Below, in pieces: positions 21,515 to 56,272 of a stretch of 64,000 nt of DNA. Below the pieces are notes generated by a model that was given only the letters and a program-made list of their open reading frames with translations, made no database searches and was not told where the DNA came from. The translations under genes were made by a program, and so were the position numbers. The stretch is from Ulota crispa (taxonomy: Eukaryota > Streptophyta > Bryopsida > Orthotrichales > Orthotrichaceae). The DNA lies in NCBI GenBank assembly GCA_963920765.1, contig OY987251.1, forward strand, positions 13,333,219 through 13,397,218, given 5' to 3'. Each line of letters opens with the position of its first letter. Within the stretch, counting starts at the first letter, position 1.

Positions 21515-22437
21515 CCCGTAAAGGACCAAAGTCCCCTTGAAGGACAAATGGGATTTTGGGCATGTATCTGTGGCTACTCTATTTTTTGTGCTTTTCTAAA
21601 ACTTTTATTGAAGGTGGGGAAATCAAAAATCTACATGGGCATCTATTTTTTCTTCATTCTGACATTTGATGAAGAAGTTATGCATGAATTTATGAAAAAT
21701 GGTGTTTGAGGGACAGCCAAAAAATTCTTTAAAAATTTCATTTTTTTCAAATAAAAATCTGAAATAGGTTCTTTAGACTTATATAGATGTGGGGAGTTTT
21801 GAATCATTCAATTCTAATAAATGAGATGAAAGTTATGAGGAGTTTTTGTTTGCGGGCAGTTCTAGATTCTCTACTCTAAAATAAACTTTGAAGTCCTTTA
21901 TTTTACTCAACTTTCAATATTTGGAAAACAAAATCAAAACCAAAGGATGTAGATTGTTTATCACAACATTATAATAGTTAAGATTTTCATTTTTTCATTT
22001 TAATAATTAAATTCTTAACAATTTAGTGTTTTGACTCATTCTCTACTTCTTTTTACTTACTATTTTTTCCCATGTGTTGTATAGTTCCAACTGATTTGAA
22101 AATTCTCCTACACATACCTAACTTGGTCTCCTACATGGGAAAAATAAACCTCAACTTTGTGTAGAGTAATTTTTTTGATTTAAGAGTGGTCAAAGCCTTC
22201 TGAAATTTCTGGGCAGCAGCAAAAAAGAACTCATTTCCGCAATTCAGATGTAAATATCTCACTCATTTTTGGGTAGATTAAGCTGAAATTTTTACCACAT
22301 GTACCTCTTGTAGTCTACTGCAAGATCATACAGTTGAATTTTTGTAAAAAACTTTTTTTCTTACCATTGTACTTGCTTCTCCAAAAGTGGCAGTTTTCTA
22401 TGTTTTTCACAGAAAAAATGGCTTGGTCCTTTAGGGG
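21515..22437. mobile_element. TTAA-type element, CCCCTAAAGGACC family
   Basis: Starts CCCGTAAAGGACCAA after TTAA (21511-21514) and ends TTGGTCCTTTAGGGG before TTGA (22438-22441), a worn TTAA. It shares internal GATTTTGGGCATGTA, TGAAGTCCTTTATTTTACTCAA and CAAAACCAAAGGA blocks with 33558-34468, 48535-49471 and 55344-56272. It is about 920 bp, like its relatives. No transposase. Confidence 0.75.
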
Positions 22438-22441
22438 TTGA

Positions 22442-23004
22442 CCCCTAAAAGCCCACTTGTCCCTTTGCGGGACAAAGTGGATTTTGGGCAGCTCACTACA
22501 AGTGGATGTTTCATCTTTTTTCTTTAAAAATTTCACACATGATGTATCCAAGGAGTAGCTTTAGGGTCCAACACTTTTCATTACTTTTGACTACATGTCA
22601 AAAGTAATGCATGAAATGCTGTTTTTTTGGAACTTTGGACTCCATACCTACCCAAAAACTAAAATGTCTCATAACTTTCATATCATCAGTAAAAAATGAA
22701 TGGTTCAAAGCTTCCCAAGTACAAATAAGTCTAAAGAACCAATTTTTTTTTAAAGGTAAAAAAAATTAATTTTTAAAGAAGTTTTTTGAGCTGCCCAGGT
22801 TGCACGGAGTTTTTTAAAAAACAACATTTCATGCAATAACTTTTGAACCATGTAGTCAAAAGTAATGAAAATTGTTGAACCCTAAAGCTACTCCTTGGAT
22901 ACGTCATGTGTGAAATTTTCAAAGAAAAAAAATGAAACGTCCACTTGTAGTGGGCTGCCCAATATCACTATTTTGCCAAAAAACAGTGCTTGGGCCTTTA
23001 GGGG
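22442..23004. mobile_element. TTAA-type element with long internal foldback, abutting its neighbour
   Basis: Ends are CCCCTAAAAGCCCA and TGGGCCTTTAGGGG. TTAA follows at 23005; the left target (TTGA, 22438-22441) is shared with the element at 21515-22437. About 22490-22640 is complementary to 22790-22970 (TCAAAAGTAATG, CTAAAGCTACTCCTTGGAT blocks), so transcripts would form a hairpin. Confidence 0.7.
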
Positions 23005-23057
23005 TTAAAAGACGACATGGCAGTGCTTGGGCCTTTAGGAGTTAAAGGACGACATGG
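22984..23057. repeat. 37-bp tandem duplication of an element end plus flank
   Basis: Units 22984-23020 and 23021-23057. Each holds the GGGCCTTTAGG(G/A)G end, the following TTAA and GACGACATGG flank. This duplicates a transposon terminus together with its target site. Confidence 0.85.
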
Positions 23058-23268
23058 CATAGTAAAAAGGCTGTTGTATAATTGATGTTTGCTATCAATA
23101 AGAAGTTTTAATTTGGGATCTCAAGTAGCTCACTAGAACCGCTTTGATCTATTCTCCAACTTCTTTGTTGATCTCAAATGCAATAAAGGTGTGAATCAAT
23201 TCCAAATACTAAAAAAATACCTTGTATTCTACTAGTAGCAGCGGCACGCTATGTCCTTTAAGGGTTAG
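23042..23268. mobile_element. About 219-bp element related to 26912-27130
   Basis: The body is the reverse complement of 26912-27130 (TTGATAGCAAA, GATCTCAAGTAGCTCACTAG, CCAACTTCTTTGTTG blocks). The right end CCTTTAAGGG is followed by TTAG. The left edge is merged with the 37-bp duplication. Confidence 0.55.
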
Positions 23269-25304
23269 TTTCCACTTGCACATGAATTTTTAATTTAAAA
23301 AAGGTGGGAATTTAATAGGTATTTCAATTGAACGCTTGAAACCAAAATTTGACATTTTTTCTTCAAATAAAAGTCGCTTTGGATTATCAAATATGTCTTA
23401 GCTATGACAAAAGAGGAAAGAAGGGGATTTTATTTTTATTTTTATTTTTACTATTCCTTCACCCGTATTATAGAGACCAATATTCAGGATACTTCAATCC
23501 AAGCTATGAGCTTCATTGGTTCCTTTTCAGCTATTAGAAGATACACTTGTAGCCTTTAGTTCAAAACCTCATAAATTCAAGAATCGTATAATCCTTGAAA
23601 AAAACATGACATTAATGTCCACAAAACAATTACACACAAAGGAATTAAACCAGTATCTACAAATCAATTACAAGTGAAGAACAAGTAATAAATTTTAAAC
23701 TACAACTCATCAAAAAGAAATTTGCATTAAAATTAAATATAACTTATATTATTTGAAATGCCTCCACTCTTTTTGCCCTAATATCACAAAAACGTTGTGT
23801 ATTATGAGTAGCAACAACCAAAAGATTATTAACGAACAATCATCCATTGATTTGATTTACGTTCAACTTTAAATGAAACTATCTACCTAGGTTGTTTTCT
23901 CGCTCTAACCAGTTTTGTCCCAACAATTTGCCCATGTCCCTCTTAACCTTGATCATCATCTTTGATAATCTACCTAGGCAACTCAAGTAAAGGCAATTGT
24001 AAGGGTAACTAGAGCAAACTTCCATGTTGACCCTGAATCAAAAAATCCCCAAGAATCACAAACAATTTTCTAGTATAAACTTGTTTGTTGTTTTTAAATT
24101 TTGAGTTTTTGGGCAACATGGAAGTTCAAACTCTTAGTGCCTTTTTTGGGGGGAATTGCTAAAACCATGCCTCCATATTGTTAACGTCACACCTCAAAGT
24201 CTGTCGCCATATGCTATCCAAGAGCTCCATCATTTCTTTAATCATGGAATTACCACCTCCTTGAAAGAAAAAAATAATAATAATAGAAGTAAATGTTTAC
24301 TAAACCCCTACTATATCATTGCTCTTTTTTCATTGATAAATTCCTACTTTGTATAATTTCAAAGCACTAATTTTGCAATTGCACAGTAAAACATCTTTAA
24401 ATTTCTAGAATATAGCCCTATAATAACAAAGATGAAACAAATCTTTAAATCCACAGAAAGAATTTTAGCATCAAATTTTCAAATTGCATGCTCAAGGGCA
24501 ACCTTGGGGTGTGGCATCAGCTTTAGTAATTCTTTCTTTTTCATTTTCATTTTTTTCATTTTTCATTTTCTTTAATCTTCTTAATTTTGGACCCATAATG
24601 TCACTTCAAATGCATGGTACCGTGTTGAAAACTTCGCCTTTGATGATGCATTTATGGTGTCAAAGAAAGAGCTTGACATTTTGCATGTTTTTCCTATCGT
24701 ACCCATGTATTTTAACTCTATTTGTTTGGTTTGAAAATGGTGGTATTTGTACACAAAACAGAGGGTGGGATTTGTTATTGGTGGCTTACTGTACTGCAAA
24801 TCTGCTTAGGGGATAGGATTTGGCTGGTCCATTAGTCATTGTCATGCTCTTTCAGGACAAAGCAGCTCAGCTGTAAGTTCACATGTGTCCGGTGGGTTCT
24901 TAGATCTTCCCTTGTCCTCCCCCTCCCCCTACCCCCTAATGGACCTTCACATCAAGTCAAAATTTACCCTTATGATCCCAAATATTTGCCTTAGAGGTGA
25001 AAATATAAAAATAAAAATAGAGCAACATCCCATGTTGTTAATACTACACCTCAAGGTGGGCACTTGGATCAACTCTCGTTCTTTCCTATCGCTCTTCACT
25101 TTTGTCTTATTATCAAGGAGGGTGTCCCAAACCACAAGGGAACTGCACCACTCCTGCTTTTGAATGTTGATGCCGAATAAGTCACATTGTATCCCATGTT
25201 TGGTTTTTGTCAAATTTTGATTTTGCCTCAATTTGTTCAAATGACATGTTTTCAATCTTCTAATATTTGTTCAACTTTTGTGTTTTTTAACTAAAAGGGT
25301 AAAT
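23269..25304. other. AT-rich spacer, no gene seen
   Basis: No recognisable protein. A partly similar pair of segments occurs near 24160-24200 and 25025-25060 (CATATTGTTAA.GTCACACCTCAA-like), suggesting an old repeat. T-rich runs lie at 24530-24580. Confidence 0.5.
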
Positions 25305-25626
25305 ATTAGGAAAAATATGGGATCCCAATAAGGCCCTGAGTTTGGGGGGTTCTTAGCCATGGGAACGCAGTTCCTAATAAAATCATGCGCAAGCTGATGT
25401 GGCATCATTGATGCCACATTAGCTTTTTCGATTTTTAAATTTTCTGGAAAAAAAAATCAAAAAAGTCTCTTATTTTTTTCTAAGACTTTATTTTTGAGTT
25501 TTTGGATTTTTTGAATTAATTTTTTCTGGCCATCCGCAAGGCTGGTTCCCCACATCAGGAACCACAGAAAATGAGGGCTGGAATAGTTTTATTAGGGCCT
25601 TCTTGAGGCCCAATATTTTTCCTAAT
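25305..25626. mobile_element. Second copy of the ATTAGGAAAAATATGGG MITE
   Basis: Ends are ATTAGGAAAAATATGGG and its inverse, followed internally by CCAATAAGGCCCTGAG and its inverse. It contains the GATGTGGCATCATTGATGCC segment paralleled in 1210-1519. Length is similar to that copy (322 and 310 bp). Confidence 0.65.
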
Positions 25627-26579
25627 GCTTCAATGTGCACGTCATGGTGTTTACTTTCACAAAAGTCATGTGCCCACCTTAAGGTGTCAATATGGGGGTG
25701 TGTCCTAACCCTTAATGTTCCAAAGGACCAAAAGTGTCTTCACATGATTTCAAAGGCCTATTTGAGGCAGTGGATCTTGTTTTTATTTATCTTGCTATAA
25801 ACTACAATTATGGATCCATTCAAGTTGTCCATGCTAATGGAGTAATGGCACGGAAAGTCAAATGTTGCACAAGTGCTGCGAGAGATTTGATTGGGTGAAA
25901 CACCACATAGGGCGTGGTGGCAAGCAGTGTTTTACAAGCTACAACCAGCCAATACTCATTGCAAGCTTTCCTTGCATTTTCTTTGTGGTAGTGGGAAAGT
26001 TGTTTGTAAGGATTCAAGCATGTTCTAAACCCTTGTTATGGCAACCCTCATTGAGTGTACTGATTATTGTTTTTTGTGCAACAAACAATTTGAAGCCCTA
26101 AAATTTGACATAAAAAGAAGTACATTTTCCATAATTTACAAGTGTGTGCATCCACATCTAATCTTGCTACTCACAAAAATTGAGATGAATCAAGGGCTTA
26201 TAGAATTTTGTAAAAATCATCAAACAACAACTATCTACCAAAAAACAAGATTTTGTCATCACATGTTGTGTGATCAAATGTTATAATCTCCCACCTCCCA
26301 CGGTCAATTGTACCCAAAATTTGCAAGCCATTTTCTAAGTAGATGTTCCACTATTTTTCAATAGTCAATTTTGGTGAATCATCAAATTGACTGAGATTCA
26401 ATGCATCAAAGTTGTAGATCTCCCAAAACCCTAATTTTGGTGAAAATGACCTCAACGTTTAGAACCATTTCCTAAAAAATTCACCCTCACCTTTGAAAGT
26501 CATTAAATGCAAGCTAATGAGAAGTCAGACCCCTCTAGGAACTTTGATTAAATAGGAGATTGAGTTTATGTCCTTCTAA
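25627..26579. other. AT-rich spacer, no gene seen
   Basis: TAACCCTTAATGTTCC followed by AAAGGACC near 25708 may be a decayed TTAA-type end. No gene was recognised; short frames around 25820-26290 show nothing I can name. Confidence 0.45.
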
Positions 26580-26903
26580 GTAGGAGTCTCATAAACAGAC
26601 CTTCTAAGGGCTGAAACTGAGTTTTGGGGAGGTGGAACTTTTTGATATATTTTTCAGTAAATTTTCCTTGAAGGGCAAGAAGAATTAGCATCTAACCCAA
26701 GTTGTTTCATATTTTTCAAAGCTTTGTGGAATTAGTCATGAAATTTTGAAGCTGAAGTGGTATAGAGCTCTAAAATCGCCCACCTCCTCAAATGTACACC
26801 ACTTGTACATTTTGAAAACCTATAAAAATAAAGCATGTGCAAAGGAAGTACATTTTAGAGGGTGGGCGGTTTTAGAGCCTAGACGGTTTGTGAGCCTCTT
26901 ACC
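26580..26903. mobile_element. GGTAGGAGGCTC-type MITE (PIF/Harbinger-like)
   Basis: Left GTAGGAGTCTCAT after TAA, right GAGCCTCTTACC before TTA. It shares TTAGCATCTAACCCAAGTTG and ATCGCCCACCTCCTCAAATG with 35862-36186. Its length (324 bp) is nearly identical to that copy. A 3-bp TAA/TTA flank is typical of PIF/Harbinger. Confidence 0.65.
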
Positions 26904-26911
26904 TTAGTTAA

Positions 26912-27130
26912 CCCTTAAACAACTGAAAGGCCCTTTGCGACCAGTACAATACGATGTATTTTTCTTATATTTGGAATGGATCCACACCTCTACTACATTG
27001 GAGACCAACAAAGAAGTTGGAGAATAGATCAATGCAATCCTAGTGAGCTACTTGAGATCCCAAATTAAAATTTCTTATTGATAGCAAATGATAATTTCAC
27101 GCAAGCATATACCCTATGGTCGTTTAAGGA
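26912..27130. mobile_element. Short TTAA-flanked element, 219 bp
   Basis: TTAA at 26908-26911 and 27131-27134. Ends are CCCTTAAACAACTG and the inverse of TCCTTAAACGACCATAG. A relative lies at about 23042-23268. It is the smallest TTAA-type family in the window. Confidence 0.6.
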
Positions 27131-27134
27131 TTAA

Positions 27135-28396: not shown

Positions 28397-28400
28397 TTAA

Positions 28401-29280
28401 CCCCTCACTGCCTAAGGGGACAAGTTCTATCCTTCAGCAATCTATCTTTGCAACTTGAAGTGCTATAACTTTTGCGTTCATTGTCCAAATTTAGTAAAAT
28501 TTGTTGGAAAAGTTGTGCATATTAATCTAGTTTCTATGATAGAATTTTCAAATCATTCTAAGGCATATTGAGTTTGTGAAAGCCACTCAAAGTTTACAGT
28601 GTCAATTTGAGTTCACCACATTAAATTGTGATGGCTACAACTTTGGGGGCATGTATCTTTTTCACCGATTTTTTTTTTCAATAAAATTTGCTGAGGGTTT
28701 GTTCCCCTTATAGTCTAGTAATTTTAGTAAGAATTTCACATCAATCCAAATTTTCTTGAATTTTTGAGAGCAACTCAAAGTTCAAAATCCCCACATTTTT
28801 GCATTATGGTGAACTTTGGTGGCTTATAACTTCTTCATAGAAACTTTGTTTTCAATGTTTGTTGTTCAAAAAGTTGCACGTACTAGTCTAGTTGCAGTGG
28901 TTAAAATTTCATATCAATCCAAGAAGTTTTGAGTGAATGAGAAGCATTTTAGTAGAGGCAAGTTTAGCCATAGATGTGATTTTTTGCCACTTTTTCATTA
29001 TCTTTTTGACATTTCAAAATAGTTTTAGTTTTTTTCATTTGAATAGGTTTAAAAATCAAATTCACCTCCAAATGTATTTTTAGGAAAATTTCAGCATATT
29101 TTATTAGCACTAAAACATTACAATCTTCCAATCTATGTGGTCAAATGACCCCAAATTTGATCCACATCATCTGCAACATGCACACTATAGGATTGTACAG
29201 TTGAGATTTTCATACTCATGCTTACAACATTTGAAAGCAAGGATGCCCTAAACCTTCTTTGGGCTTTAGGCAATGAGGGG
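28401..29280. mobile_element. TTAA-flanked element, CCCCTCACTGCC family
   Basis: TTAA at 28397-28400 and 29281-29284. Ends are CCCCTCACTGCCTAAG and CTTTAGGCAATGAGGGG. The ends resemble those of 1126-2082 but the body differs. It contains repeated TTTTGAG...CAACTCAAAGTT-like internal motifs. 880 bp, non-coding. Confidence 0.75.
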
Positions 29281-29284
29281 TTAA

Positions 29285-33553: not shown

Positions 33554-33557
33554 TTAA

Positions 33558-34468
33558 CCCCTAAAGGACTAGGCCCCCTTTTTTAGAAACATAGTGATTT
33601 TGGGCAGGTACCTGTGATTGGAGCTTTTCATGTTTTAGGCTGAAATTTTAACAGAATGTGGGGACAAGGTTTATCTTTCATATGCACTAAATTTCATGAC
33701 ATTTGGAATTATGAGTAAAAAGTTATGGCCTAATATGTTGTTTTTTACGTTCATAGGGCAGCATGGGCAGATTTTAAAAATCACTTTTTTCAAAAAAAGA
33801 AGAAAATTGGTTTAGGAGATTTATGTGAATGTAGGAAGCTTTGAATCATTATGTTTGGATCAACAAGATGAAACTTATGAGGATTATTAGTTTGCTGGCA
33901 ATTATGGATTCTCTACTCCAAAATAAACTTTGAAGTCCTTTATTTTACTCAATTTTCAACATTTTGGAAAAACAAACAAAACCAAAGGATGTAGATTGTT
34001 TATTGTAGCATTATGACCATTGGGATTGGCATTTTTCATTTCCATAATTAAATTCTTAACATTTTAGTGTTTTGAATCATTCTCAACTTCTTTTTACTTA
34101 CTATTTTTTTTCCATATGTTATACAACTCCAAATGATTTGAAACTTTTTTGACATGTACTTTACTTAAGTGGAATAAGGATTTTAGAGAAGCACCACCCG
34201 CATGGCCTTTTTTCCTTAGGAATTTCACCTTCTGAAGGGTAGTTGCTTGGTTTTTCACAAGACATTTTTGAATATTCAAACCATTCTAACTTCCAATCCA
34301 TGTTGTGAAAAACTCTGAATTTTTTTCCACATCTTCTAAAACCATAATTTTACAAGATCCTACTGTCACATATGCATAAAATTGTTTTTGTTTTCAAATT
34401 TGGTTGATGCTCTAAAAATGGCAGTTTTGAAGAGTTTTTGGTGAAAACATTGCTTGATCCTTCAGGGG
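33558..34468. mobile_element. TTAA-flanked element, CCCCTAAAGGACC family
   Basis: TTAA at 33554-33557 and 34469-34472. Starts CCCCTAAAGGACTAGG, ends TGATCCTTCAGGGG. It shares GATTTTGGGCAGGTACC and ACTTTGAAGTCCTTTATTTT blocks with other members. 911 bp. Confidence 0.75.
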
Positions 34469-36186: not shown

Positions 36187-37131
36187 TGAATCCGTCTCAT
36201 ATAAGAAAAGCAAAAAATTAAAAATGCAAAGTCCTAAATAGCAGCTATTTATTTAGAGTCCAAGGTTTTAAATATGGGTTTAAATGTTAATTAACCCCCC
36301 CTCCCCCCTTCTCTGTCTGCCGAGTGGGCAGAGCGAAGCAACGGCGGCGGCGCTGTTTTTTGGTTTTTTTCTCTCACTACCCGCGGGCAGCGCTGTTAGT
36401 TTCATCCCCTTGACGACTTGTGAAGTACGCCACCCTGTTAAGACCGCTTGCGCGGGCAGGGCGGCCGGCAGAGCCAAACCCCAACCCACGCCCGGCCCGT
36501 CCTCCCCCGTGGATCCAGGGGAGAGGAGAGAGAGGGAGCGTTGCGAGCGTCACGACGCCAGCTCCGAAGGGGATGAACATCACGCACCCTTCAGTTCTAA
36601 ACCCCACTCACCTCATAGCGCTCATTCCCCTCCACATCCTTCATCTCTCTCCTTTCATTCCAGTTTCTCGCAGTTTTCATTGCCGGTGCGTCGTTGGTTT
36701 TCCAGTTACGGAGTTGACATAGTCTGCGCAGTTGGGTACACAGTATTTTTTTTGCATTTGTATTTCCGCAACCGTGTGCATATCCACCTCCCCCCTCGTC
36801 GTCGTCGTCCCAGGTTGTAGGGGTGTCGCACTCGCCGACACACCAATTTTTATATTTATTAGCCCTTCCATTTGTGTCACAAGCCGCCCATTAGGGTCAG
36901 GTCGGGTCAGGAACTCGGAACCATTTTTTTTGTACTCTCTCTCTTCGTCACTGCAGCTTAGTCTAGTGTAACGCTACCAAGTCTCTTCTGGATGCGCGAT
37001 CTGCATAAGAATTTCTGGACGGTGAAGAATTGGTGGGTATTTTATTTTGTTGTGATTTTTTGGGTTGTAAGGGAAGGGAAAGAAACGGAGTGAGTGAGGG
37101 TTTGAGAAGTAGGTGTTGTCGCATTCTAGCT
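36187..37131 (+). promoter_or_regulatory. SMR upstream region and probable 5' UTR
   Basis: Composition changes sharply at about 36290 from AT-rich to GC-rich, with CCCCCC, GGCGGCGGCG and CT-rich runs typical of plant promoters and leaders. A 178-residue frame at 36284-36820 is low-complexity and not considered coding. No certain TATA box or start site was found. Confidence 0.45.
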
Positions 37132-37674
37132 ATGGCGCCCACAACAGTAGTCGTAGCAGTAGCAGCAGCGCCAGGGTGCTTGTCGATGTTGCAATCGTCG
37201 GAGCCGCCGGAAGTGGTGGGATCTGGGAGACGACGGCTCTCGCTCGACAGTTGGGTGTGCTTGCCCATCCTTCGTCCCGTGCGGACGTCTAGCACGTCGT
37301 CGCAAGTGTCGTCATCCGGCAGTTCTTGCACAACGCACAAGGACTCCGTTACCAAGGAGCACCAGCAACAGCCGCAACAGCCGCAGCCGCTGCCGCAGTC
37401 GCAACACCAGCAGTCGCAGCCGCAGCCGCAGTCGCAACCGCAGCAGTTGAAGACATTGACGCTGGAGGTGCCGTCGGACGAGTTGGAAACGGGGTGCGAG
37501 ACGCCCAAGTCGAAGGAGCACCGAATTCCGGACGTGGACGTGACGTTTTGCCCGCCGGCGCCGAGAAAACCTCGCGCTATGGCGCGCCGGCGACGCGTGC
37601 AGCCCACGAGTTTTTTCAACACCCCGGACTTCGAGAATTTTCTCTCGCAACACAAAGTGCAAGTGCTCAGCTAA
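37132..37674 (+). CDS. SIAMESE-related (SMR) cyclin-dependent kinase inhibitor, 180 residues
   Basis: Plant-specific inhibitor of CDK-cyclin complexes; members of this family restrain mitosis and favour endoreduplication, often in response to stress. Diagnostic motifs are GCETPKSKEHRIP at residues 121-133 (the SIM-family core, usually TPxSxEHKIP), CPPAPRKPR at 140-148, a basic patch RRRR at 152-155 likely to aid nuclear entry, and FFNTPDFENFL at 161-171. The ATG at 37132 was chosen because upstream frame extension has no ATG with similar content. The gene has a single exon, as is common for SMRs. Residues 78-105 are a Gln/Pro tract encoded by CAG/CCG-type codons, longer than the usual linker. 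GC-rich codons contrast with the flanking AT-rich DNA. The long upstream leader and 3' UTR suggest post-transcriptional control, which is inference. Most angiosperm SMRs are about 70-130 residues, so this is a long member. Confidence 0.92.
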   Translation: MAPTTVVVAVAAAPGCLSMLQSSEPPEVVGSGRRRLSLDSWVCLPILRPVRTSSTSSQVSSSGSSCTTHKDSVTKEHQQQPQQPQPLPQSQHQQSQPQPQSQPQQLKTLTLEVPSDELETGCETPKSKEHRIPDVDVTFCPPAPRKPRAMARRRRVQPTSFFNTPDFENFLSQHKVQVLS

Positions 37675-40014: not shown

Positions 40015-40017
40015 TAA

Positions 40018-42201: not shown

Positions 42202-43101
42202 CCCCTAAAGGACCAAGGAGCCCACTTTGGGCTTTATGAGAATTTGGGCATGCTCTATTGACTTCATAATTTGGAAAATTTTCATGAAATTTTTAGGATG
42301 AATGCTACTCATCATAATCTACATGTGAAGCTTTATTTCATGTCATTCCAATAAGTAATGCAAAAGTTAGAAGGTTTTTTCAATTTCAATGTCAAATCGG
42401 GTAGCAAAAAATATATTCTAATTTTTTTAAATTTTAAATTTATAGAATTTTATAGATTGATACCTACTCAAAAAAAGTTGAATCATTCAATTCCAAATAA
42501 TGAGGTAAGAGTAAAAAAGAGTTTTATTTTGTAGGCAATGAAGGTAGGAAGAGGGTAGTTATCTTATACTCGCAATTTTCAAAATTTTCAAATGAAAATG
42601 AAAATTAAAGTTACCAATTGTTTGTTAGAGCATTCTCACAATTGGGATTAACAATTTTCAAATTCTTCCAAAACTTATTAGCATATTAGCTATGTCTTTC
42701 ATTCATCAATACCTTTCACTTTACAATTTTTGTAAAAATGAATCCAAGATTTTTTTTGGTTGATTTTTTTTTATATATGCTTTCAACCCATTTTCCAACA
42801 TATTGCCAAAATTGCACAAGAAATACAACATATTTGTTTTTCTCTAAAAAGTTTGAAAAACAAAACTTCACCTTTTGGAAGGATTAGAAATTCTACATTT
42901 TGAAGTTTAGGCACATTGATCTTGCAATTAGGGGGGGATGTTCATTTTGAAATTTTGGGACAATGTACTTGTGCAAGTCAACCAAAGGATCCTACGGTTG
43001 GATTTGTTAAAAAGTAAGTTTCAATGAAGATTTTGACCTTGCTTTGGGGACTAGTATTTTGAAGCAATTTTGGGCCTCTAAACACAAAAGAATTTTAGGA
43101 G
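42202..43101. mobile_element. TTAA-flanked element, CCCCTAAAGGACC family (worn right end)
   Basis: TTAA at 42198-42201. Starts CCCCTAAAGGACCAAGGAGCCC with the usual TTTGGGCATG inside. A decayed end TTTTAGGAG-TTAA lies at 43093-43105. About 900 bp, consistent with the family, but more diverged internally. Confidence 0.6.
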
Positions 43102-43437: not shown

Positions 43438-44326
43438 CCCCTAAAGGACCACTTGTCCCTATGGGGGATAAATGAGGTTTTGGGTAAGGTCATGCTACTA
43501 CAATTTATGATCAAATTTTATAATTTTTTCTTCAAAGTTAGAGTTTTGTAAGAGTTATGCAGGAGAATAAATTTTATTGAATTTTGATTTACGGTTCAAA
43601 AGTTATAAGGGTAATCATGTGAATTTTAGTTGGAGGGGCAACTTGGGCATGCCATTTTTTGTTGACTTCTCCCAAGGGGAACCAATGAAGGGATGACCCT
43701 TCATTGGAAACTATCCAGAGCAATAGTGTACTAAATAAATACATTATTGTATTTGATAAGTACATTAACCTTTGAATTACAATAGCTACTAGAGATTTAG
43801 TTCTTTTTCCAATTTTCTTTCTTGAGATTGTCAATGAAGCTAAACTCTTCCAATCCATTGCTTGGATTTTTGTACTCTTCAATATATCTTTAGAGAACTT
43901 GTTTGGCAAAAAACCTTAGTATAGTGTGAATTTCAAGCACATGTTTGCAATGCAAGGCCATGGAGGGTGTGTTCCATGTCTTGGTTGATCACTAAAACTT
44001 GGAGAGATATGCCTAACATGATTTAGAGCATGTTAGAAAAATCTCTTCAAATCCTATAGTGCAAAAAAATTTCATCACATGTGATCAAAGGCACTTGAAA
44101 ATTTTGGGCAGGGTAATAAAACTTTAGGTACTACCTGCAGATGATCATATCTCTCAATCTATACGGACAAACTTCACAAAAAATTTATGGTATGTCCTTG
44201 AATGAGTCTACTACAAGATCCTAAGGTTAGATTTGATTTTTTTTTAAATTGTTTTTGAAATTAAATCCCTAGAAATGACAGTTTTGAGTCTTTTTTGAGA
44301 AAAAAATGTGCATGGTCCTTTAGGAG
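43438..44326. mobile_element. TTAA-type element, CCCCTAAAGGACC family
   Basis: Starts CCCCTAAAGGACCACTTGTCCC (left flank CTAG, probably a mutated TTAA) and ends TGGTCCTTTAGGAG before TTAA (44327-44330). 889 bp. Confidence 0.65.
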
Positions 44327-44900: not shown

Positions 44901-45069
44901 AACTCTGCTTGGGATCTCAAGTAGGCCTCATGCTTTTGTCTTGTTTAAAAATAGGGTTTCAAAGTTCTTGGAATGCAAAACTGATAGTTTGTAAGGAGAA
45001 AACAAGACAAAAATCCTATTTATTCATGCAAAATCCCAAAGAGTTTTTTGTACATTGTGAAGTGTACAA

Positions 45070-46045
45070 TACCCAAAAGAAAGAGTATATAACTTATGGT
45101 TTTGTGCCTAAAGGCCTAACTTTGAAATCACATTTAGAGGATGATCCATTGCAATTTTGAAAAAAAAGTTGAACAAATATAGCTCAAAATTTATAGGAGA
45201 ACAACTTTTGTTCTTGGCCAAATAGCTTAGTATGAATTTGTAGTGAATGATTGATCAACAAATCGGAAAATTATACGTTCAAAGGTAATTTTTTCAAATA
45301 ACAATTACTACATCAGTTACTAAGATTTTGAAATTACTTTCTAAAAGGAAACCACTCAAAACCTGCATGAGAATAACTTTTGTACTAGGCTCAAGAGCTT
45401 ATCATGCATGCGTGCTTCACAAATGAAGCCCAAACGAGTGAACCAAGCAAGAAGTATGAATTTTTTTGTGGTTGTGCAAATCTCACTCTACAAAGGCAAA
45501 TGTTCCAAAAAAATCATGTCTACCCAACATGAGGAAATTTGGACCTAGCCTCCTCGGCTGAATTTGATTGACCTTTACTTGCACCTAATTGAGTTGGTCT
45601 AGCTTCATCAATTGAGCTCACAAAGGAGTGAGAGTTGCATGGCCACAAAAAAAAATCATACTTCTTGCTTAGTCCACTTGTTTGGGCTTCATTTGTGAAG
45701 CACGCATGCATGATAAGCTCTTGAGCCTAGTACAAAAGTTATTCTCATGCAAGTTTTGAGTGGTTTCCTTTTAGAAAGTAATTTCAAAATCTTGGTAACT
45801 GATGTAGTAATTGTGATTTGAAAAAATTACCTTTGAACGTATAATTTTCCGATTTGTTAATCAATCATTCACTACAAATGCATACTAAGCTATTTGGCCA
45901 AGAACAAAAGTTGTTCTCCTATAAATTTTGAGCTATATTTGTTCAATTTTTTTTCAAAATTGCAATGGATCATCCTCTAAATGTGATTTCAAAATTAAGC
46001 CTTTAGGCACAAAGCCATAAGTTATACACTCTTTCTTTTGGGTAC
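45070..46045. repeat. Long foldback: two 420-bp inverted arms, 130-bp spacer
   Basis: Left arm 45070-45490, right arm 45622-46045, complementary at about 95 percent or better by eye. Matching blocks include CCCAAAAGAAAGAGT, GATGATCCATTGCAATTTTG, CAACTTTTGTTCTTGGCC and GCATGCGTGCTTCACAAATG. The spacer (45491-45621) is unrelated. No coding potential. Read-through RNA would form a long, nearly perfect double strand. Confidence 0.85.
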
Positions 46046-48530
46046 TATATAATGGCCTACCAAAAAGATCGTTGTATTAATTTTTTTCATCATCTTCTTC
46101 ATGCAGAGTATAGTAGCTTTTATGATAGAAAACACATACATCAACCACAATTATGGTCATGATACTTCTTGATAAGTAGCTTGATGAAGTAAAGAAGCAA
46201 CGTGCTGATTGTTTTTGTCACCAAAGTTGACTTTGAAAAAGGTGTGAGACTGAAAATGGGACAGTCTTTTTGGGAGGCCACTAGACATAAGGTACAAGCA
46301 TCCGCTTGCTACCTTGTGAAATCAAGGAGAAATACAAGAAACCCTTATGGAAAGCATCTTGAGAAATCAAGACTCTTCCTTTTTGCAAAAAGAGTTCAAA
46401 ATTTGTTGCACTTAAGAAAAAAAGATATTGCAACAAAAGAGGTAGTGGTTTGAAAATCTTCTTAAGAAAATTTCTATGATTTGTGGCTTTTATTAAAATC
46501 AATGTAACATTGTATGGCAATGGTAGCTTTTTTATCTTCCTTGATATTTTGGAACCTCTTACCACTTTATCTTTGGATTAGGGCAAAACTGAAGTTACAA
46601 AATGGCCCTTTGATCTCCTTTTGTGGTTCCTTCAACAAAATCATTTTTTTCTTCTCAACAGAGTTACTAAAGTTTTGTATTTCTTCATTTAACCATGATG
46701 ACTTTGACAACTTAGACATAAAATAACAAAATACTAATGACTTGGTAGTTTTTTCACTTGCTTTGACGATACTTTGAAGGGATTAATTGAAGAAAAGCTT
46801 GAATCCATTTTAGGACCCATGCCATTATCGTCTCAATGATTCTAGAACATGTTTTATTGTGTGTGATAACGCTTTATCAACGTATTAGATTGATATCATT
46901 TGAGTCCTCTTATGAATGATTCTTCATGTCCACAAATCCTTGAAGCTTTGATTTTAATTGATGGGCACCAAAAAAATGTGTTTTGTTTATGCATAAATGA
47001 TCCAAATAAATGCAAAGTCATAAATGGGGTTTTTCATAAAATATTATTAGATCATTTTGAACCAATGGAACTAAACAATTTAACAAAATTAAATACTCTT
47101 TAGCCCAAAAATCTCATGTGCCACAATTCAATAATACAACAAGTTTGGTTAGAGATATCCTTACAATCGCCTTATGTTAAGATGAAGAACCACCTCCTCT
47201 AGAATTTCATGCTGCCCCACGTGCAACCAAACAAAACAATGCACAAGCCTTGTAGGATGGCCAATAATTTATTTCATAAGTTCAGGAAATGTCAACATCA
47301 ATTCACCTTTATAGCATCTTTATCAAATTTGTTATCATAAGCCACAAACTTTAGAAGAAGGCTTGAGTTGCTATTTTAACTGCTACCCCAATCTATAAAA
47401 CATCAATGTTTTCAGTCTAAAATTGTGCATTAAAATATTAGAATCTTGCAAACATTGTAGTATGCATTATTTATGCACAAAATTTTGAATTAACGGGCAT
47501 TTACAAATTGAAAGTAATTTTTTTAATGGGAAACAATACTTTCACAAAAGATTTGGACCTTCTTGGACTTCAAAGTAACTTTGACATGTAGTGTAAGGTT
47601 TTCTTTGTATTAGGAGTTGGGTTTTGGAGCTCCAACATGTCTTAATTTTGCCTCTTTTTGATACAATACGTGAAAGCAATCCTAGAATATTTACACTACA
47701 AGTTAAGTTTAACATTTGAGAATTTTGTTTTCAAACTCAAAAGACAAGATCTAGCATGGTCTCCAACTCCAAGAATATGATCTATTCAAAATGGATGGCT
47801 AATTTTTGGCCTTTGGACCATAATCAAATCTCATTAAAACACAATTTCAGTTGAACTTGTGTGTATTTTGGAATCGTCAACACCAACAAATTGGAACCAA
47901 ATCTCAATGGTTCTACTTCATCTAATTCATTTCTTCTCTTTCAAGTTTTCAAGGCTTGTAGTCATGGCCCTCTACTATTTGGCCGCAATGCTTTTATTTA
48001 ATCTGAGGATTTTCTTCGAACTATACTTGTTGAAATGTTGGAACAAATTGCCCCAAAACTTGATGTCCAATTAGGTGAAAGCAGCCATAGCCAGCAATGT
48101 TTCATACCCAACAAATAGGATGTGCTATTTCCAATCTCAATATGGATAGGTGCTCTAGAATGCGTTCTTCTACCTCTTTCAAAGTTTGGGACCACTTAAC
48201 TCATGCCACATGTCCCAAAATGAAGTAGAAAATAATGAGCAGAAAGTAATTTGGCTATTATTGGAATTACATGAGTTTAGAGGTTGGCAATGGATTCACA
48301 ACACTTTTTCACTCCCAAAGTTCACAACAAATTTAGTTTTGCAAATAAAATTATGAAGAATTAGCAATTCCAATATTTCTCATCTCCCTACATGGGAAAA
48401 ATACTTGTTGCTTCAACCCTTTGTAGTTGTTGGAGAATTGCTTAAGTTATTTGGTATGGGTGCTTCCACCTTACTCCTAATTTAAAGCATTAATCAACAA
48501 CCATTTGGCGCTACTAAAAAAGGTGTCACA
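46046..48530. other. AT-rich spacer, unassigned short frames
   Basis: Frames such as 46202-46453 (plus), 46900-47103 (plus) and parts of 47850-48110 look slightly protein-like, but no family was recognised. They may be decayed transposon coding sequence. Confidence 0.4.
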
Positions 48531-48534
48531 TTAA

Positions 48535-49471
48535 CCCCTAAAGGACCATTGTCCCTTTGGGGGACAGGTTGGATTTTGGGCATGTACCTATGGCTAAAGT
48601 ACTTTGTGTGACTTTCTGAAACTTTTATTGAAGGTGTGGAATTCAAAAATCTAAGTGGGTATCTAACTTTTTCTTCATTCCAACATTTGATGAAGAAGTT
48701 ATGCATGAATTTCAAAAAAATTGGGGAGGATTGCCTGTCCAGGCAACCCAAAAACTTTTTTAAAAATTACTTACTTTTAAAACTCAAATTTGAAATTGGT
48801 TCTTTAGATTTTTTTATTCATGAGAAGCTTTGAATCATTCAATTTCAATTTATGACATGAAAGTTATGAGGAGTTTTGTTTGTGGGCAGTTATGGAATCT
48901 TTACTCTTAAATAAACTTTGAAGTCCTTTATTTTACTCAATTTTCAGTATTTTGGAAAAAAAAAACAAAACCAAAGGAAGTAGATTGTTTATCACAACAT
49001 TATAACCGTTGTGATTTGCATTTTTCATTTCCACAATTAAATTCTTAACAATTTAGTCTTTTGACTCATTCCCTACTTCTTTTTACTTACTATTTTTTCC
49101 CATGTGTTGTATAGTTCCAATTGATTTGAAAATTCTCCCACACATACCTAACTTAATTTCCTACATGGAAAAAATAAAGCGCAACTTTGGGTAGAGAAAT
49201 TTTTTGTTATAAGACTGGTCAAAGGCTTCTGAAATTTGTGGGCAGCATGGAAAAAAACTTTTTTTTCACTTTAGATGTAAATATCTCACTCCTCTCCATC
49301 TGGAATGAGCTGATTTTTTTCCCACAAGTACTTCTTCTGACCTAGGGCAAGATCCTATGGTTGGATTTCCCAAAAACAAAACATAAAATCCCTTTTTTGA
49401 AAACCTCCTAGAAGTGGCAGTTTTTAGTTTTTAGTGATTTTGGCAGATAAAAGGGCTTGGTCCTTTAGGGG
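48535..49471. mobile_element. TTAA-flanked element, CCCCTAAAGGACC family
   Basis: TTAA at 48531-48534 and 49472-49475. Starts CCCCTAAAGGACCATTGTCCC, ends TTGGTCCTTTAGGGG. One of the best preserved members: 937 bp, 14-bp or longer inverted ends. Confidence 0.8.
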
Positions 49472-49475
49472 TTAA

Positions 49476-49850: not shown

Positions 49851-49853
49851 TTA

Positions 49854-49991
49854 GAGCATCTCCAATCCAATAGTAAACAGGCCCCCAAAACTGAGTTTGA
49901 CATATTAGTAATGGTCAGATCATGATCTGACCATTACTAATATGTCAAACCCAGTTTTGGGAGCCTGTTTACTGCTGGATTGGGGATGCTC
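49854..49991. mobile_element. Near-perfect 138-bp hairpin MITE, TTA-flanked (Tourist-like)
   Basis: The two halves are inverse complements with about six differences and no loop; the centre is the palindrome GATCATGATC. It begins GAGCATCTCCAATCC and ends with the inverse. TTA at 49851-49853 and 49992-49994 is a 3-bp target duplication typical of PIF/Harbinger (Tourist) MITEs. Most mismatches become G-U pairs in RNA. Confidence 0.85.
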
Positions 49992-49994
49992 TTA

Positions 49995-50757: not shown

Positions 50758-50760
50758 TGA

Positions 50761-51056
50761 GATCATCTCCAACATTACCCTTGTAAAGCTTGACATACTT
50801 CAAGAATGGATAATAAGTGCTCCAAGCCCCTCAAAACTCTCTCATGGGACTCCATCTTATTGTATCAAGCAGTGGCTTTTTAAACACTATTTATCCTAAG
50901 TCTAGTGAGCTTTATCCTATATTCCTCTTGGTGAATGGTCAAATTACTATTTATAAGAAGTGCAAGGGTGGAGAACAATAATTTTGAGGGCTTTTCAAAA
51001 ATAGATGGTGTAATCTCTTGAAGTGTCAAGTTTGAAGTGTGATGCAAAAGATGCTC
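50761..51056. mobile_element. GAGCATC-type MITE (Tourist-like)
   Basis: Left GATCATCTCCAACATTACCC, right AAAAGATGCTC before TTA (51057-51059). The left flank TGA is a worn match. The body is related to 34540-34735 and 54101-54425. 296 bp. Confidence 0.6.
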
Positions 51057-51398
51057 TTAGGAGGTGTACTAAAAGGAATCCACAAACTATAAGCCAATGT
51101 GGCTGTTTTAGCTCCTCATGGCATTATCTAAATGGACTAACCTTGCATCCATTGTAAATCCAATCACATCCTATTATTTTCAATTTTGTATGAACAGTTC
51201 TATACAAAAACCAAATGTGAAAATATGAAAATAATCAAAAATTGTATAAGTTAACAACCAATGTTCATGTTGACATTTAGTATTGTAACACTATTGAAAT
51301 TGTTGTCATTTAATGTTAGAATTTGTAATTAGTGATGCAAACACTAAATTGCGTTGTTAGTATAGCACTTGATGGTTGGAACTGTTGAGGCCTTATAA

Positions 51399-51802
51399 GA
51401 TCATCATCAACCCTTACACCAAGTTTGGAATTGGAAACTAGGCACTCTTTAGCAGCTCTCCATCCCCTAATTTGCAATCTCATTCATTGGACAAATCCTC
51501 CCACTCTTGTCACATATCCATGCACAAGAGAGAGTCACTTGCGAGCATTTGCAAGTTGTTGCAAAAAGTTGCAAGCTATTGCAAGCAACATGTCATTCCA
51601 GCAACAAAAGCAATGGAAGTCCCAAAGCACTAGATAACGAGCAAATTTGTTGTGAGGAAGTTGTTTAGATGGGGTCATCTCTTGATTATGCGTTGCCGTG
51701 GTTGCATTGGAACCCTAAAGGTACTTCAATCTCCTACACAATTGGCCCCACCAACAAAAATGAAGTTACAATCCCATTCCTTGTCTTAGGTTGATGATGC
51801 TC
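51399..51802. mobile_element. GATGATGCTC-type MITE, TAA-flanked
   Basis: TAA at 51396-51398 and 51803-51805. Ends are GATCATCATCAACC and GGTTGATGATGCTC. 404 bp. It shares its right TAA with the next element. TTGCAAG repeats fill 51540-51590. Confidence 0.65.
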
Positions 51803-51805
51803 TAA

Positions 51806-52442
51806 GAGCATCTCCACCAGCGTATTTTTTTTTTGGGTTTTTGTTAGTAGAGCAACACGCACCCCACCATGCGAGCAGGTAAGGAAAATTTGGATAGAAT
51901 TGGATAGAATCATTGGCATCTACTTGTTCATCCATAAAATCTACTCATTTTAGTAACATTCATCCAAAAACTTGGCACATGTGCTGCAAACTTGGGGAGG
52001 AGTTTGACAAATTCATTTGTTTATTCACAAATTTTTTCCATGTTATGATTGCCAAGCCGGTTTCAAGGTAAGGTTTAGGCAAATTTTTGCCAATAAAATT
52101 TACGCTGATCTCCACATGTTTGGCAAAATGCAATGTCAAAAACACTTTTGGATGAAAAAATGACAACCATTGCTTGAACCTGCCAAAATATTGTTTCTTG
52201 TACTATAAAAATTACATTTTTTGTGCACATTAACTCCTCTAAACTTTGTTTTTCTTCAATATATTAATAAGTTGAGTAAGCAATGATAAAAATTCTATCT
52301 ACTTTTTCAAACAAGGAGACTTGTTATTAGTTGAACATTATTTTACGTAGTTGCACGGGTGGGGAAAATTGCAGTTCAACACAAGAAAAAGAAGTCACAA
52401 TGTTTCCTAGGATGAATTCCTGCCGGTGCAATGGAGATGCTC
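51806..52442. mobile_element. GAGCATCTCCA-type MITE abutting its neighbour
   Basis: Starts GAGCATCTCCACCAGCG after the shared TAA and ends CAATGGAGATGCTC before TAC. 637 bp. Part resembles 44330-44540. Confidence 0.6.
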
Positions 52443-53214
52443 TACATTATCTTACAATACCCAGATTGGTGTAGAGCAACTGTTTGCCTTATTTTCTCCA
52501 GTACGTCTACAGTCAGGAACTCAGGATTTGTATAGGGAAGATGCCACATCTTATCTGCTGATAAATGCCATCATGAAGCCCCCTCCCCCCAATCCCCCAC
52601 AGTCTATTTCTTGCCTGAGATGTGCTAAAAAAGAGGGACTTGCATGTGAATGGGATCCATCAGGTGGAAAATTAGTTAGTCAGGGGCGCTTTTCCAGTAC
52701 TTTTCCAGTGCTTTTTCAACACTTTGTCAGTGCTTTTTCCTGTTCCATTACGTAGCTGATTCCCTTTAGGCTTTTCAAGTTTAATATTTGCAGTGCAAAA
52801 TCCATGGAGGATCTTGGATACATATTGAAGCGCCGGGGTAGGCACATCCCGCTGAATAGTGTGAACTTTAAACTTTTGTTTTGGGGACATTTTCATGTTT
52901 GAGATGCCATGCTATATCCGCCATGGAGGGGTGTTGTAGCTTAAATGTAGGAGGCATGGTGGGGACGTCCATGGCCAAGTATTTGATTACTTTTAGCCTT
53001 TTGTGTTTGTGTTGCCATGCAAAATTGGTGATTGATCTCAGATCACAATGGATTTTGCAATGGATATCTGGCATGGCAAGGAACACATTCAACAAATCAA
53101 GGGCCAGGTCTTGAGGCCTTTTTTGTTTCGACTTGCTAAAGCAATTCTTGCCACCTCGTACATTTCTACCACCTTGGCCCAACAAAAGGGAATTGCCATA
53201 TGCACACCAGGGGT
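52443..53214. other. GC-richer segment with unassigned frames
   Basis: Less AT-rich than its surroundings. Minus-strand frames at 52672-52896 and 52868-53185 overlap and look protein-like in composition, but no domain was recognised. It could be decayed mobile-element coding sequence. Confidence 0.35.
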
Positions 53215-53222
53215 TTGTTATA

Positions 53223-53611
53223 GGGAGCGACTAGGTGGACACCCCCAACTGCTACACGGACACCCCATAGTCAAATCTATTAAATTTGAGAACAAAATTA
53301 CGCTGAAATATGAAATTAAACCAAAGTAGATCTGCGTCTACAAGCGTTGCAAACACACAATAAATTTGTCTCATTTGTGCCACGGTTAGGAGTTAAACGA
53401 GTTGCTCCCTTCATTTATTGGTTTGACTCTTGACCGTGTCACAAATGAGACATATTTGTTATATGTCCACAATGCTTGTAGATGCAAAAGTATGCAAAAG
53501 TATTGCTTTGATTTTATTTCATGTTTTAGCGGAATAATAATCTCAAAATTAATAAGTTTGGCTATGGGGGTGTCCACGTAGCAACTAGGGGGTGTCCGCC
53601 TAGTTGCTCCC
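53223..53611. mobile_element. hAT-like MITE with 8-bp target duplication
   Basis: The direct repeat TTGTTATA lies at 53215-53222 and 53612-53619. Ends are GGGAGCGACTAGGTGGACAC and the inverse of GGGAGCAACTAGGCGGACAC. Inner arms are also complementary (AAATTTGAG..AAAATTA, TTTGTCTCATTTGTG). An 8-bp duplication fits the hAT superfamily. 389 bp, no transposase. Confidence 0.82.
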
Positions 53612-53628
53612 TTGTTATATAGAAACCC

Positions 53629-53951
53629 GGGGGGTAAATTTTAGATATTCACCATCAACAAGTTTGAATTTTGAGATTTTGAATTCACGTTTGGATTTAG
53701 TGATCTTGATTTAGTTTGGAATCACAAAAGAGGATACAACTGAACAAAGCTTAGCACAAAAGTTTGGCATTTTTTTACAAACAATGATAATAGTGATAAT
53801 TTGCCCTTAGGCTAAGCTTTTCCACTTGACATTGTACAACTATATCCAGTCCTCTATGGTTCTAAACTAAATCAAGGTCTCTAAATCCAAATGTGAATGC
53901 AAACTTTCCAATTTCCACTTGTTGATGGTAAATATCTAAAATTTACCCCCC
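53629..53951. mobile_element. Foldback MITE with GGGGGGTAAATTTTAGATATT ends
   Basis: The left end and its inverse at the right match over 30 bases or more (continuing CACCATCAACAAG), with further complementary segments inside. 323 bp. No clear target duplication. A partial relative lies near 35310-35440. Confidence 0.68.
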
Positions 53952-54100
53952 ATGTATACATATAACAAATCCCTAGTGTATATCTATCAATTCCCCAACA
54001 CAATAAGGGAGAAAAACATTTGTTTGTTCTTTTTTTTAATGTTTTACAATATCATTGTGGCCTACACAAACACTATTGTTTTGTCATCATCATTACATAA

Positions 54101-54425
54101 GAACATCTCCATTGGTGCCATCTGCAATCTAACACTTGCCAAAATTGGATGAGAAGTTCTCCATGCCCTTTTAAAACCCTCTCAAGGCACTTTGTCCTAG
54201 CGTGCCTAGCGATGGCCCTTCAAACCATTATCCATTTTAAGTTTGGTGAATTTTATCTTAAATTCCCTTCAATGAGTGATCAAATGACCATTTATAAGAC
54301 ACATCAAAAGGCAAGAATCACCTTTTTGAAGAACATAGGTGGAGATCAAAAAGTTTGAGGACCCTTCTAAAATAGATGGAAACCATTGACCAACCCAGGT
54401 GTGGTAAGCAACCGTGGAGATGTTG
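54101..54425. mobile_element. GAACATCTCCA-type MITE, TAA-flanked (Tourist-like)
   Basis: TAA at 54098-54100 and 54426-54428. Ends are GAACATCTCCATTGG and GTGGAGATGTTG. The body is homologous to 50761-51056. 325 bp. Confidence 0.68.
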
Positions 54426-54540
54426 TAATCTAGCACTGTCAGGCTCCGTTTGCAAGCTCTGCAAAACTTGGCCGATGCCAATCGAGGAAAGAAACGTAAC
54501 AAGATTATGATCTTCCCAATGATTGTAGATGTTGCATTAA

Positions 54541-54777
54541 CCCCTTAATTGCTGAGTGCCCAGAGTTATTTTAGGATTTAGGAGAAAATGGGGGGTTTAA
54601 TGGCCACAACAGCTTGGAAAATTACATCCAAAAAAAGTGATTGCAGGATTTGAAAAAGGACTACCTTCTTTGCTAATGGGGACCAACCATGAATGTTTCA
54701 CCGTATGGATTGAGAGAAAAAGTGAGATAAAGTTTGTGGGCCCATTGACAATATAATGTCGATCAGATGCTCAGGCG
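54541..54777. mobile_element. TTAA-type element, left partner of an inverted pair
   Basis: TTAA at 54537-54540 and 54778-54781. Starts CCCCTTAATTGCTGAG, ends CAGATGCTCAGGCG. It is about 80 percent complementary to 54782-55010 across AATGGCCAC.ACAGCTTGG and GACCAACCA blocks. Confidence 0.62.
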
Positions 54778-54781
54778 TTAA

Positions 54782-55010
54782 CCCGTAAGTGCCCTAGCAA
54801 CGGGATCTTGTTGTTGGGGATCCCAAGTTTATCACATTTTTTCTCTCAATCAATACTATGAAAAAAGTTGTGGTTGGTCTCCATCAGCAAAGAAAGTGGT
54901 CCTTTTTTAGATCCTACTTTCATTTTTTTGGATGTAATTTTCCAAGCTGTGGTGGCCATTAAACCCCCCATTTCCTTCTAAACCCTAAAACAACTCCAAG
55001 CGCTTAGGGA
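54782..55010. mobile_element. TTAA-type element, right partner of an inverted pair
   Basis: Shares the central TTAA (54778-54781) with its partner and ends before TTAA (55011-55014). Starts CCCGTAAGTGCCCTAG; the end is the inverse of TCCCTAAGCGCTTGG. Together the two make a 470-bp imperfect palindrome. Confidence 0.62.
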
Positions 55011-55059
55011 TTAAGGATGATGCCTACCAAAAGTGTTGGCTACATTTATACAAGGAACA

Positions 55060-55205
55060 TTTAGTACTTGAAGAAATGGCTTTATAATAAATGCCAATAT
55101 TTCCCTAAAATTTCCTAGTTGACTAGTGATATGTTAGTGACTTGGTTTGAAATTTACAAATCCAATGGGATTCATGTGCTACTCAAGTGCCCCATCTGTG
55201 TACAA
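55060..55205. repeat. Dispersed repeat, inverted partner of 3400-3560
   Basis: About 80 percent complementary to 3400-3560 by eye. The flanking context differs, so this is a dispersed repeat rather than a local duplication. Confidence 0.5.
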
Positions 55206-55343
55206 CACAAGAGAGCCTATACAAAACAACAACATTTTCAAGGGATTAAGTCAACGTTTAATTCACAATTAGAAGTAGTATCTTAGCAATACCAATGTCA
55301 TGGGTGTGTAGTAGATTTTCCATATTTGCAAGTCCCACCTTAA

Positions 55344-56272
55344 CCCCTAAAGGACAAACTGTCCCCTCGAGGGACAATTGGGATTTTGGGCATGTACTTA
55401 CAACTAAACTACTTTGTATGATTTTTTGAAACTTTTATGGAAGATGAAGAACTCAAAGACCTACGTGGGCATCTAATTTTTTCTTCATTCCAACATTTAT
55501 TGAAGAAGTTATGCATGAATTTCTGAAAAAAGGTGGAGATCGGGCAGCCAATTTTTTTTCTAAAAATAACATTTTTTCAAAATAAAAATCTGAAATTGGT
55601 TCTTTAGATTTATACATATGTGGGGAGCTTTGAATCATTCAATTCCAATTTATGATTGAAAAGTTTTAGTTTGCAATCAGGTACGGAACTCCCATACTTC
55701 CATTCCTTTTGCCTTTGGTGCTATACTTTTTGTGCTCTTTGTGAATTTTTTTTTGGATTTTTTTTTCCTTGCTGTAGTAGACTAAGATTCCTTGGTTTTT
55801 GTCATTTGGATCAAAGTAATTCACATTTCACAATTTTACATAGATCCTCCAATTTTGCCTAGTGTATATGCAAATTTGATGGCCTTATGGCATTGCAAGA
55901 TTATACAAAATATGATTCACACCTCCAATTCATTTGAAAATTCTCCCACACTTACCTAACTTGGTCTTCTACATGGGAAAATAAACCTCACATTTGCATA
56001 GAGCATTTTTTTTATTTAGAGGCAATCAAAAGCTTCTGAAGTTTTTGGGCAGCAGAGGAAAAAACTTCTTTTTTCACTTCAAAAGTCAATATCTCACTCC
56101 TCTACATCTAGAATGAGCTAATTTTTTTTCCACAATTACCTCCCATAGTTTAGGGCAAGATCTTACGGTTGGATTTCCAAAAATAATTGTTTTTCCTACC
56201 TTTGTACTCATTCCCTCAAAAGTGGCAATTTTTAGTAACTTTCACTGAAAAAAGGGCTTGGTCCTTTAGGGG
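55344..56272. mobile_element. TTAA-flanked element, CCCCTAAAGGACC family
   Basis: TTAA at 55340-55343 and 56273-56276. Starts CCCCTAAAGGACAAACTGTCCC, ends TTGGTCCTTTAGGGG. 929 bp. It is close to 48535-49471 at both ends, but the middle (about 55675-55900) is unlike it, suggesting an internal replacement. Confidence 0.78.

Follow-up and report, generated by a model that had tools for sequence, protein, structure and literature searches.

In the moss Ulota crispa, a 64,000-base stretch of chromosome 10 (C10:13333219-13397218, hereafter the window) contains a dense group of short elements that are almost certainly MITE-like, non-autonomous piggyBac transposons, presumably mobilised in trans and excised seamlessly by the PF13843 transposase of longer relatives. 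We assign them to piggyBac because of their TTAA target sites, the empty copies of insertion sites, the transposase genes found between matching ends, and a right end that the main family of the window shares with transposase-bearing copies.

The sequence-only reading had described C-rich inverted ends with TTAA, or a one-base variant of it, on both sides. Reading the border bases of its 13 intervals in the 64-kb window, we find TTAA on both flanks in 10 of them. Two more have TTGA on one side: 21515-22437 (TTAA/TTGA) and 22442-23004 (TTGA/TTAA) abut and have a single TTGA in common. The description fails at 43438-44326 (CTAG/TTAA), whose left flank is a two-base variant. A C-rich left end and a G-rich right end are present in 13 of 13 intervals; those that fit the others poorly are both ends of 26912-27130 and, at 42202-43101, the right one. 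The matched ends read CCCCT...AGGGG and so begin with CCY, a start typical of piggyBac terminal inverted repeats. Together, the 13 intervals occupy 9,883 of 64,000 bases (15.4% of the window).

Paired TTAACCC...GGGTTAA ends occur nine times in the window, against 0.02 expected (mean of 100 first-order Markov simulations of the window; maximum 1). Counted without pairing, there are 20 left and 12 right ends of this type. A scan with a looser pattern, over 311,604 collected bases partly picked by these very ends, gave 25 end pairs without any TTAA requirement and 6 in the identically scanned reversed-sequence control; 16 of the 25 have TTAA on both sides, and four look like chance or misplaced pairs. 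Single loose ends, at 513 versus 414 in the reversed control, are hardly above it: pairing and TTAA, not the loose end pattern, are what stands out. The four TTAA positions are about equally conserved (21/25 each on the left, 23-25/25 on the right) next to variable outer neighbours, in counts that include seven pairs from L001-L008 chosen for their left TTAA.

Table 1. Elements of the window with their borders, strand where assigned, and supporting observations.
Interval	Strand	Element	Observations
1126-2082		Non-autonomous TTAA element, CCCCTCACCGCCC end type	TTAA on both flanks, paired ends
3372-3608		Small 237 bp TTAA element, CCCCTAAAGGA end, overlooked in the sequence-only reading	Paired ends 13/16, TTAA on both flanks
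16803-17452		Non-autonomous TTAA element with TCCCTCACCGCCC ends, nested within another element (CCCCTAAAGGACC, L001-type copy)	TTAA on both flanks, empty copies
21515-22437	+	Main 930-bp CCCCTAAAGGACC subfamily, right flank TTGA	81% versus 48535-49471; right end common with four transposase copies
22442-23004		563-bp element adjoining 21515-22437, common TTGA	Borders; internal 118-nt arms 93% complementary
26912-27130		Short TTAA element, weaker ends	Borders; repeats: inverted relative 23058-23267, relative L040:7817-7977
28401-29280		Non-autonomous TTAA element, CCCCTCACTGCC end type	TTAA on both flanks
33558-34468	+	CCCCTAAAGGACT-end element, second subfamily	91% versus L005
42202-43101		Left end of CCCCTAAAGGACC type; right end degenerate	TTAA on both flanks
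43438-44326	+	CCCCTAAAGGACC-end element, left flank CTAG	Right 589 bases 73% identical to the tail (6846-7437) of transposase-bearing L054
48535-49471	+	Main 930-bp subfamily copy, taken as reference	89% over 949 bp versus L003
54541-55010		470-bp TTAA element	Borders; ~94-nt inverted arms 87% complementary
55344-56272	+	Main 930-bp subfamily copy	Final ~355-506 bp common with four transposase-bearing copies
57992-58646		TTAA element, CCCCTGAGCGCCC end type	TTAA on both flanks

The window holds other features besides. A 40-bp unit containing TTAACCCCT is tandemly duplicated (3298-3377) where the small element 3372-3608 has its left border. An inverted repeat at 45065-46049, with 312-nt arms 96% complementary and 103-nt arms 94% complementary, has no TTAA in its border bases and is probably another foldback DNA element. 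The palindrome 49853-49992, made of 70-nt arms (93%) without spacer, represents a different MITE type, with TTAGAGCATCTCCAATC...GATTGGGGATGCTCTTA on the outside. A Pfam search of five open reading frames of the window gave no match; one of them, 37009-37674, whose C-terminus reads ...PTSFFNTPDFENFLSQHKVQVLS, resembles the SMR-type CDK inhibitors of plants.

These ends are abundant far beyond the window. The genome searched comprises 274,817,297 bases in 157 contigs; it may lack some small contigs of the published assembly cbUloCris4.1, given as 275.00 Mb in 408 scaffolds in the available part of its description (PMC11803377). For the plastid psaA, the best solved relatives are 8htu and 6l35/7ksq, structures from Physcomitrium patens, in keeping with a moss host. 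The assembly-wide search proposed by the sequence-only reading returned 38,725 matches to TTAACCCCTAAAGGACC with at most 2 mismatches (19,294 + 19,431), against 40 (23 + 17) for the reversed control. Exact TTAACCCCTNANNGNCC occurs 11,779 + 11,708 times genome-wide, its reversed control 1 + 1 times. Exact CCCCTAAAGGACC has 9,597 sites (4,753 + 4,844), with TTAA at 8,154 of them (4,072 + 4,082; 85%). If every element has two ends and a length of ~0.9 kb, the 38,725 ends suggest ~19,000 elements, 17 Mb and near 6% of the genome, a crude estimate in which single ends and other end types within 2 mismatches are counted too.

Filled and empty sites were compared by joining the flanks of an element and searching the collected sequence; three insertions had uninterrupted copies. 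Empty copies for the insertion 16803-17452 are found in L053, L001 (the same locus as L055) and L002, with a single TTAA, and in L054, with TTAC; no alignment spanned this site in L051 or L003. For the insertion L039:8906-9550, an uninterrupted copy in L045 again has a single TTAA. Insertion at TTAA is demonstrated at these two insertions by their single-TTAA empty copies. At the third, L001:1505-2451, the empty copies L056, L057, L058 and L005 are equal in length and carry the 4-bp site CCAA, not TTAA, in 4 of 4 alignments. A genome search with this insertion point gave 261 candidates, of which 40 were scored; apart from the locus itself, all of these (39) are uninterrupted across the join. 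A CC-to-TT change in the host copy that was hit is a plausible explanation of the CCAA sites, since insertion would have required a copy with TTAA. The candidate empty site for 43438-44326 yielded no single spanning alignment. The TTAA duplication that the sequence-only reading expected from such comparisons is thus borne out at two insertions, but takes an extra assumption at the third.

A profile search of the genome with PF13843 (DDE_Tnp_1_7) gave at least 120 matches, spread over C1-C11 (best E 1.3e-73); the number is a lower bound, and 4 of the 120 are second pieces of neighbouring matches. By a hand count of the table, 110 of the 120 listed rows have at least one stop and 10 have none. 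None of the 120 matches listed lies inside the window, in agreement with the earlier statement that it holds no transposase.

The loci examined are the best scorers, not random picks. L039 and L040 share 90% identity across an alignment of 5,029 columns, and their similarity is bounded within one base by TTAA-CCCC ends (TTAACCCCTCATCGCC in L039 and TTCACCCC in L040 on one side, GGCAATGAAGGGTTAA on the other). L041 (1967-7712) and L042 (2471-7926), with AAATGCC ends, align in blocks of 68-81% that are bounded by the ends within two bases, L042 terminating in TTGA. Both pairs are elements of 5.0-5.7 kb with a PF13843 transposase between both TTAA-CCCC ends. In the frame of L041, two open pieces match PF13843 (2.6e-59 and 3.7e-07); the first also matches, in the PDB, piggyBat 9c0f (1.7e-16) and the transposase of 6x67/6x68 (3e-13), which we take to be the Trichoplusia ni piggyBac protein. 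Simple patterns for the catalytic Asp motifs, applied to 30 loci that include decayed copies, detect the first motif in 23 (the match in L031 being off position), the second in 18, the third in 16 and all three in 8. Cys/His-rich C-terminal tails are visible in L041 and L054; the PF13842 zinc-finger search gave 0 matches in U. crispa and likewise 0 in 14 control genomes.

Few of the 30 loci show ends at 1.5 kb or less from the transposase domain, because the elements are longer. In 10-kb stretches around six transposase copies (L049-L053, picked for open frames, and L054, the L011 copy), bracketing ends reached at best 12/16 and outward controls up to 11, with no convincing pair. One of these copies, L049:4228-5655, has a piggyBac-like frame that is open over 476 aa and reads GGVNVGDQ instead of GGVD..DQ at the third catalytic motif; it is either decayed or host-retained.

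Two further observations concern the genome at large. Pairs of PF13843 matches in opposite orientation stand 14-109 kb apart at C7:18203169/18223004, C2:36765124/36779670 and C10:676128/785346, with identical scores in two pairs and close ones in the C10 pair; they are either inverted duplications or assembly artefacts. For psaA/psaB, 46 of 48 matches (weak ones counted) fall outside the plastid contig C157, on chromosomes C1-C10, so U. crispa appears to carry many nuclear plastid DNA fragments.

The window family is tied directly to four transposase copies. When 22 element copies were compared with the transposase loci, the right half of the main family recurred at the downstream edge of L025, L026, L034 and L038, whose right ends we reached by taking 600 bases more downstream. 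Read inward, the four end in TTAACCCCTAAAGGACC, exactly so in L038 and L034, as AAAAGACC in L025 and as AAAGGATT in L026. Similarity between them extends up to the TTAA after CCTTTAGGGG in five of the six pairs, once one base beyond; the exception, L025-L026, stops ~155-160 bases before the right end. The last 140 bases of the four loci align with the copies 48535, 21515 and 55344 up to the TTAA (TTGA in 21515) and are divergent beyond it. Overall, the window family and the four transposase copies share roughly the last 350-500 bp (~290-375 bp for 48535-49471). A search of the 4 kb upstream of the domain did not reveal the left ends of the four transposase copies, and in three MITE copies the left ~490 bp have no match above 49 bp in the four loci. 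That 49-bp match, between 55344 and L038, marks where the shared right part begins; the remaining short ones correspond to the end itself (15-19 bp) or to small pieces that look A/T-rich. The left part of the MITEs therefore comes either from the unseen upstream stretch or from elsewhere. The earlier identification of TTAA plus C/G ends as piggyBac, along with its proposed search for DDE_Tnp_1_7 between the same ends, is supported: L039/L040 and L041/L042 have both ends around the gene, and four copies have the right end of the window family.

Behind the common end, the elements are diverse. Alignment to 48535-49471 gives identities of 81% (21515), 70% (55344), 64% (33558), 52% (42202) and 48% (43438); as these range only from 48 to 81%, several subfamilies with different interiors exist under one common ~18-bp end. 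Thirteen same-end copies likewise show several interiors: 48535, L003 and L007 agree at ~90%, 33558 and L005 at 91%, L001 and L002 at 89%, and the rest go down to 40-50%. The conserved interiors that had been attributed to the 890-940 bp set are real within subfamilies but not across them.

The transposases are diverse as well. A tree of 30 domains, those with loci among the 120 matches, midpoint-rooted for drawing only, contains several deep lineages. The four copies with AAAGGACC ends (L025, L026, L034, L038) form one clade with support 98/96, adjoining L011, whose locus L054 ends in AAAGGCCC. A larger clade (100/99) unites the AAAGGACC-end copies, L011 with AAAGGCCC, the AAATGCC pair and three unlabelled rows; the CATCGCC and likely the CACCGCC copies are in the other half of the tree. 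End types label 10 of the 30 rows (L011 and L014 from one end each), and in these the transposase clade tracks the end type: of 200 shuffles, 3 clustered the five labels jointly to the same degree. We give an even chance to a broader picture, that of an old, diversified moss piggyBac lineage that grew into one of the main groups of DNA transposons in the genome (a single end family making up ~6%, crudely), in which at least two large transposase clades each drive their own end types and MITE families and a few transposase genes are possibly retained by the host.

Plant MITEs mostly belong to Tc1/mariner or PIF/Harbinger, and the window elements could be MITEs of such a superfamily with short A/T targets (TA, or TTA/TAA) and a coincidental TTAA. 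Both superfamilies are named in the available text of PMC10004981. A TA duplication with A as the first element base would leave an identical empty-site string, so that the empty sites alone are compatible with TA inside TTAA. The reading is nonetheless scarcely credible: all four TTAA positions are about equally conserved while the outer bases vary (with L001-L008 chosen for the left TTAA), which differs from a 2-bp TA or 3-bp TTA/TAA duplication, TTAA stands at 85% of exact CCCCTAAAGGACC ends, and the transposase between the ends is PF13843. Kolobok likewise duplicates TTAA, and piggyBac transposases might lie by chance near elements of that or another TTAA-targeting superfamily. We find this barely conceivable, given that the similarity of transposase loci spans the TTAA-CCCC ends in two pairs and reaches the shared right end in five of the six pairs of four loci, and that transposase clade and end type coincide in the 10 labelled rows. 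The reading as a different superfamily was dropped, since the PF13843 pairs L039/L040 and L041/L042 are bounded by TTAA-CCCC ends.

That piggyBac is best known from animals would suit a recent horizontal transfer from an animal, or animal contamination. On the evidence of this one genome such an origin is highly unlikely: matches extend over C1-C11, elements are nested in one another and in other repeats, the 30 transposases fall into several deep lineages, and most matches contain stops. An ancient transfer is possible.

For the window elements as non-autonomous piggyBac derivatives, the following course is proposed. Relatives of 5-6 kb or more would encode the piggyBac transposase (PF13843, DDD catalytic core), which would recognise the ~13-18 bp C-rich ends in trans and excise the element, binding and excision being expected from the superfamily. 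Reinsertion would occur at TTAA with its duplication; cut-and-paste movement in trans and seamless excision are the presumed parts of this course. From its autonomous parent, the main 930-bp family would have retained only about the final 350-500 bp, without the transposase gene.

The piggyBac superfamily is known mainly from animals and is among the most used transposon tools; a 2017 survey is reportedly the source cited for piggyBac-like elements (PBLEs) in plants. The view that it is scarcely reported in land plants holds in part, but PiggyBac in plants is mentioned in print. In the available portions of the sources, PBLEs are placed in fungi, plants and animals (PMC8086355), PiggyBac stands among seven angiosperm MITE superfamilies (PMC10004981) and among plant DNA superfamilies (PMC10794571), and the C-fern repeat table lists 1,230 PiggyBac copies, 122,417 bp and 0.00 in the percentage column (PMC6890710). 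In the literature searched, as far as these partial texts go, native land-plant piggyBac appears only as class labels or passing mentions; among the matches listed, from partial coverage of the literature, no account of native piggyBac in mosses was found. Because piggyBac-like elements in plants are already in print, this is a known kind of element, in an unexpected host and at unusual abundance.

With some ten thousand copies or more, the moss provides native plant piggyBac ends and transposase lineages. The U. crispa family amounts to a natural experiment on how MITEs amplify, and it allows a test between an ancestral presence of the superfamily in plants and its acquisition from another kingdom. 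Plant repeat annotation may class such elements as unknown.

With the piggyBac superfamily (piggyBat, T. ni piggyBac), the moss elements have in common the TTAA target and its duplication, C-rich inverted ends and a PF13843 transposase with conserved D motifs; they differ in their moss host, in CCCCTAAAGGACC and related ends, in a very high copy number and in mostly gene-less copies. The piggyBac MITEs of insects and corals are likewise short non-autonomous copies using TTAA, whereas the moss copies are ~930 bp long, have several unrelated interiors under the same end and reside in a plant. In the C-fern, PiggyBac is a class label in a land plant, as far as the available text shows; in U. crispa, transposase, ends and empty sites are tied together.
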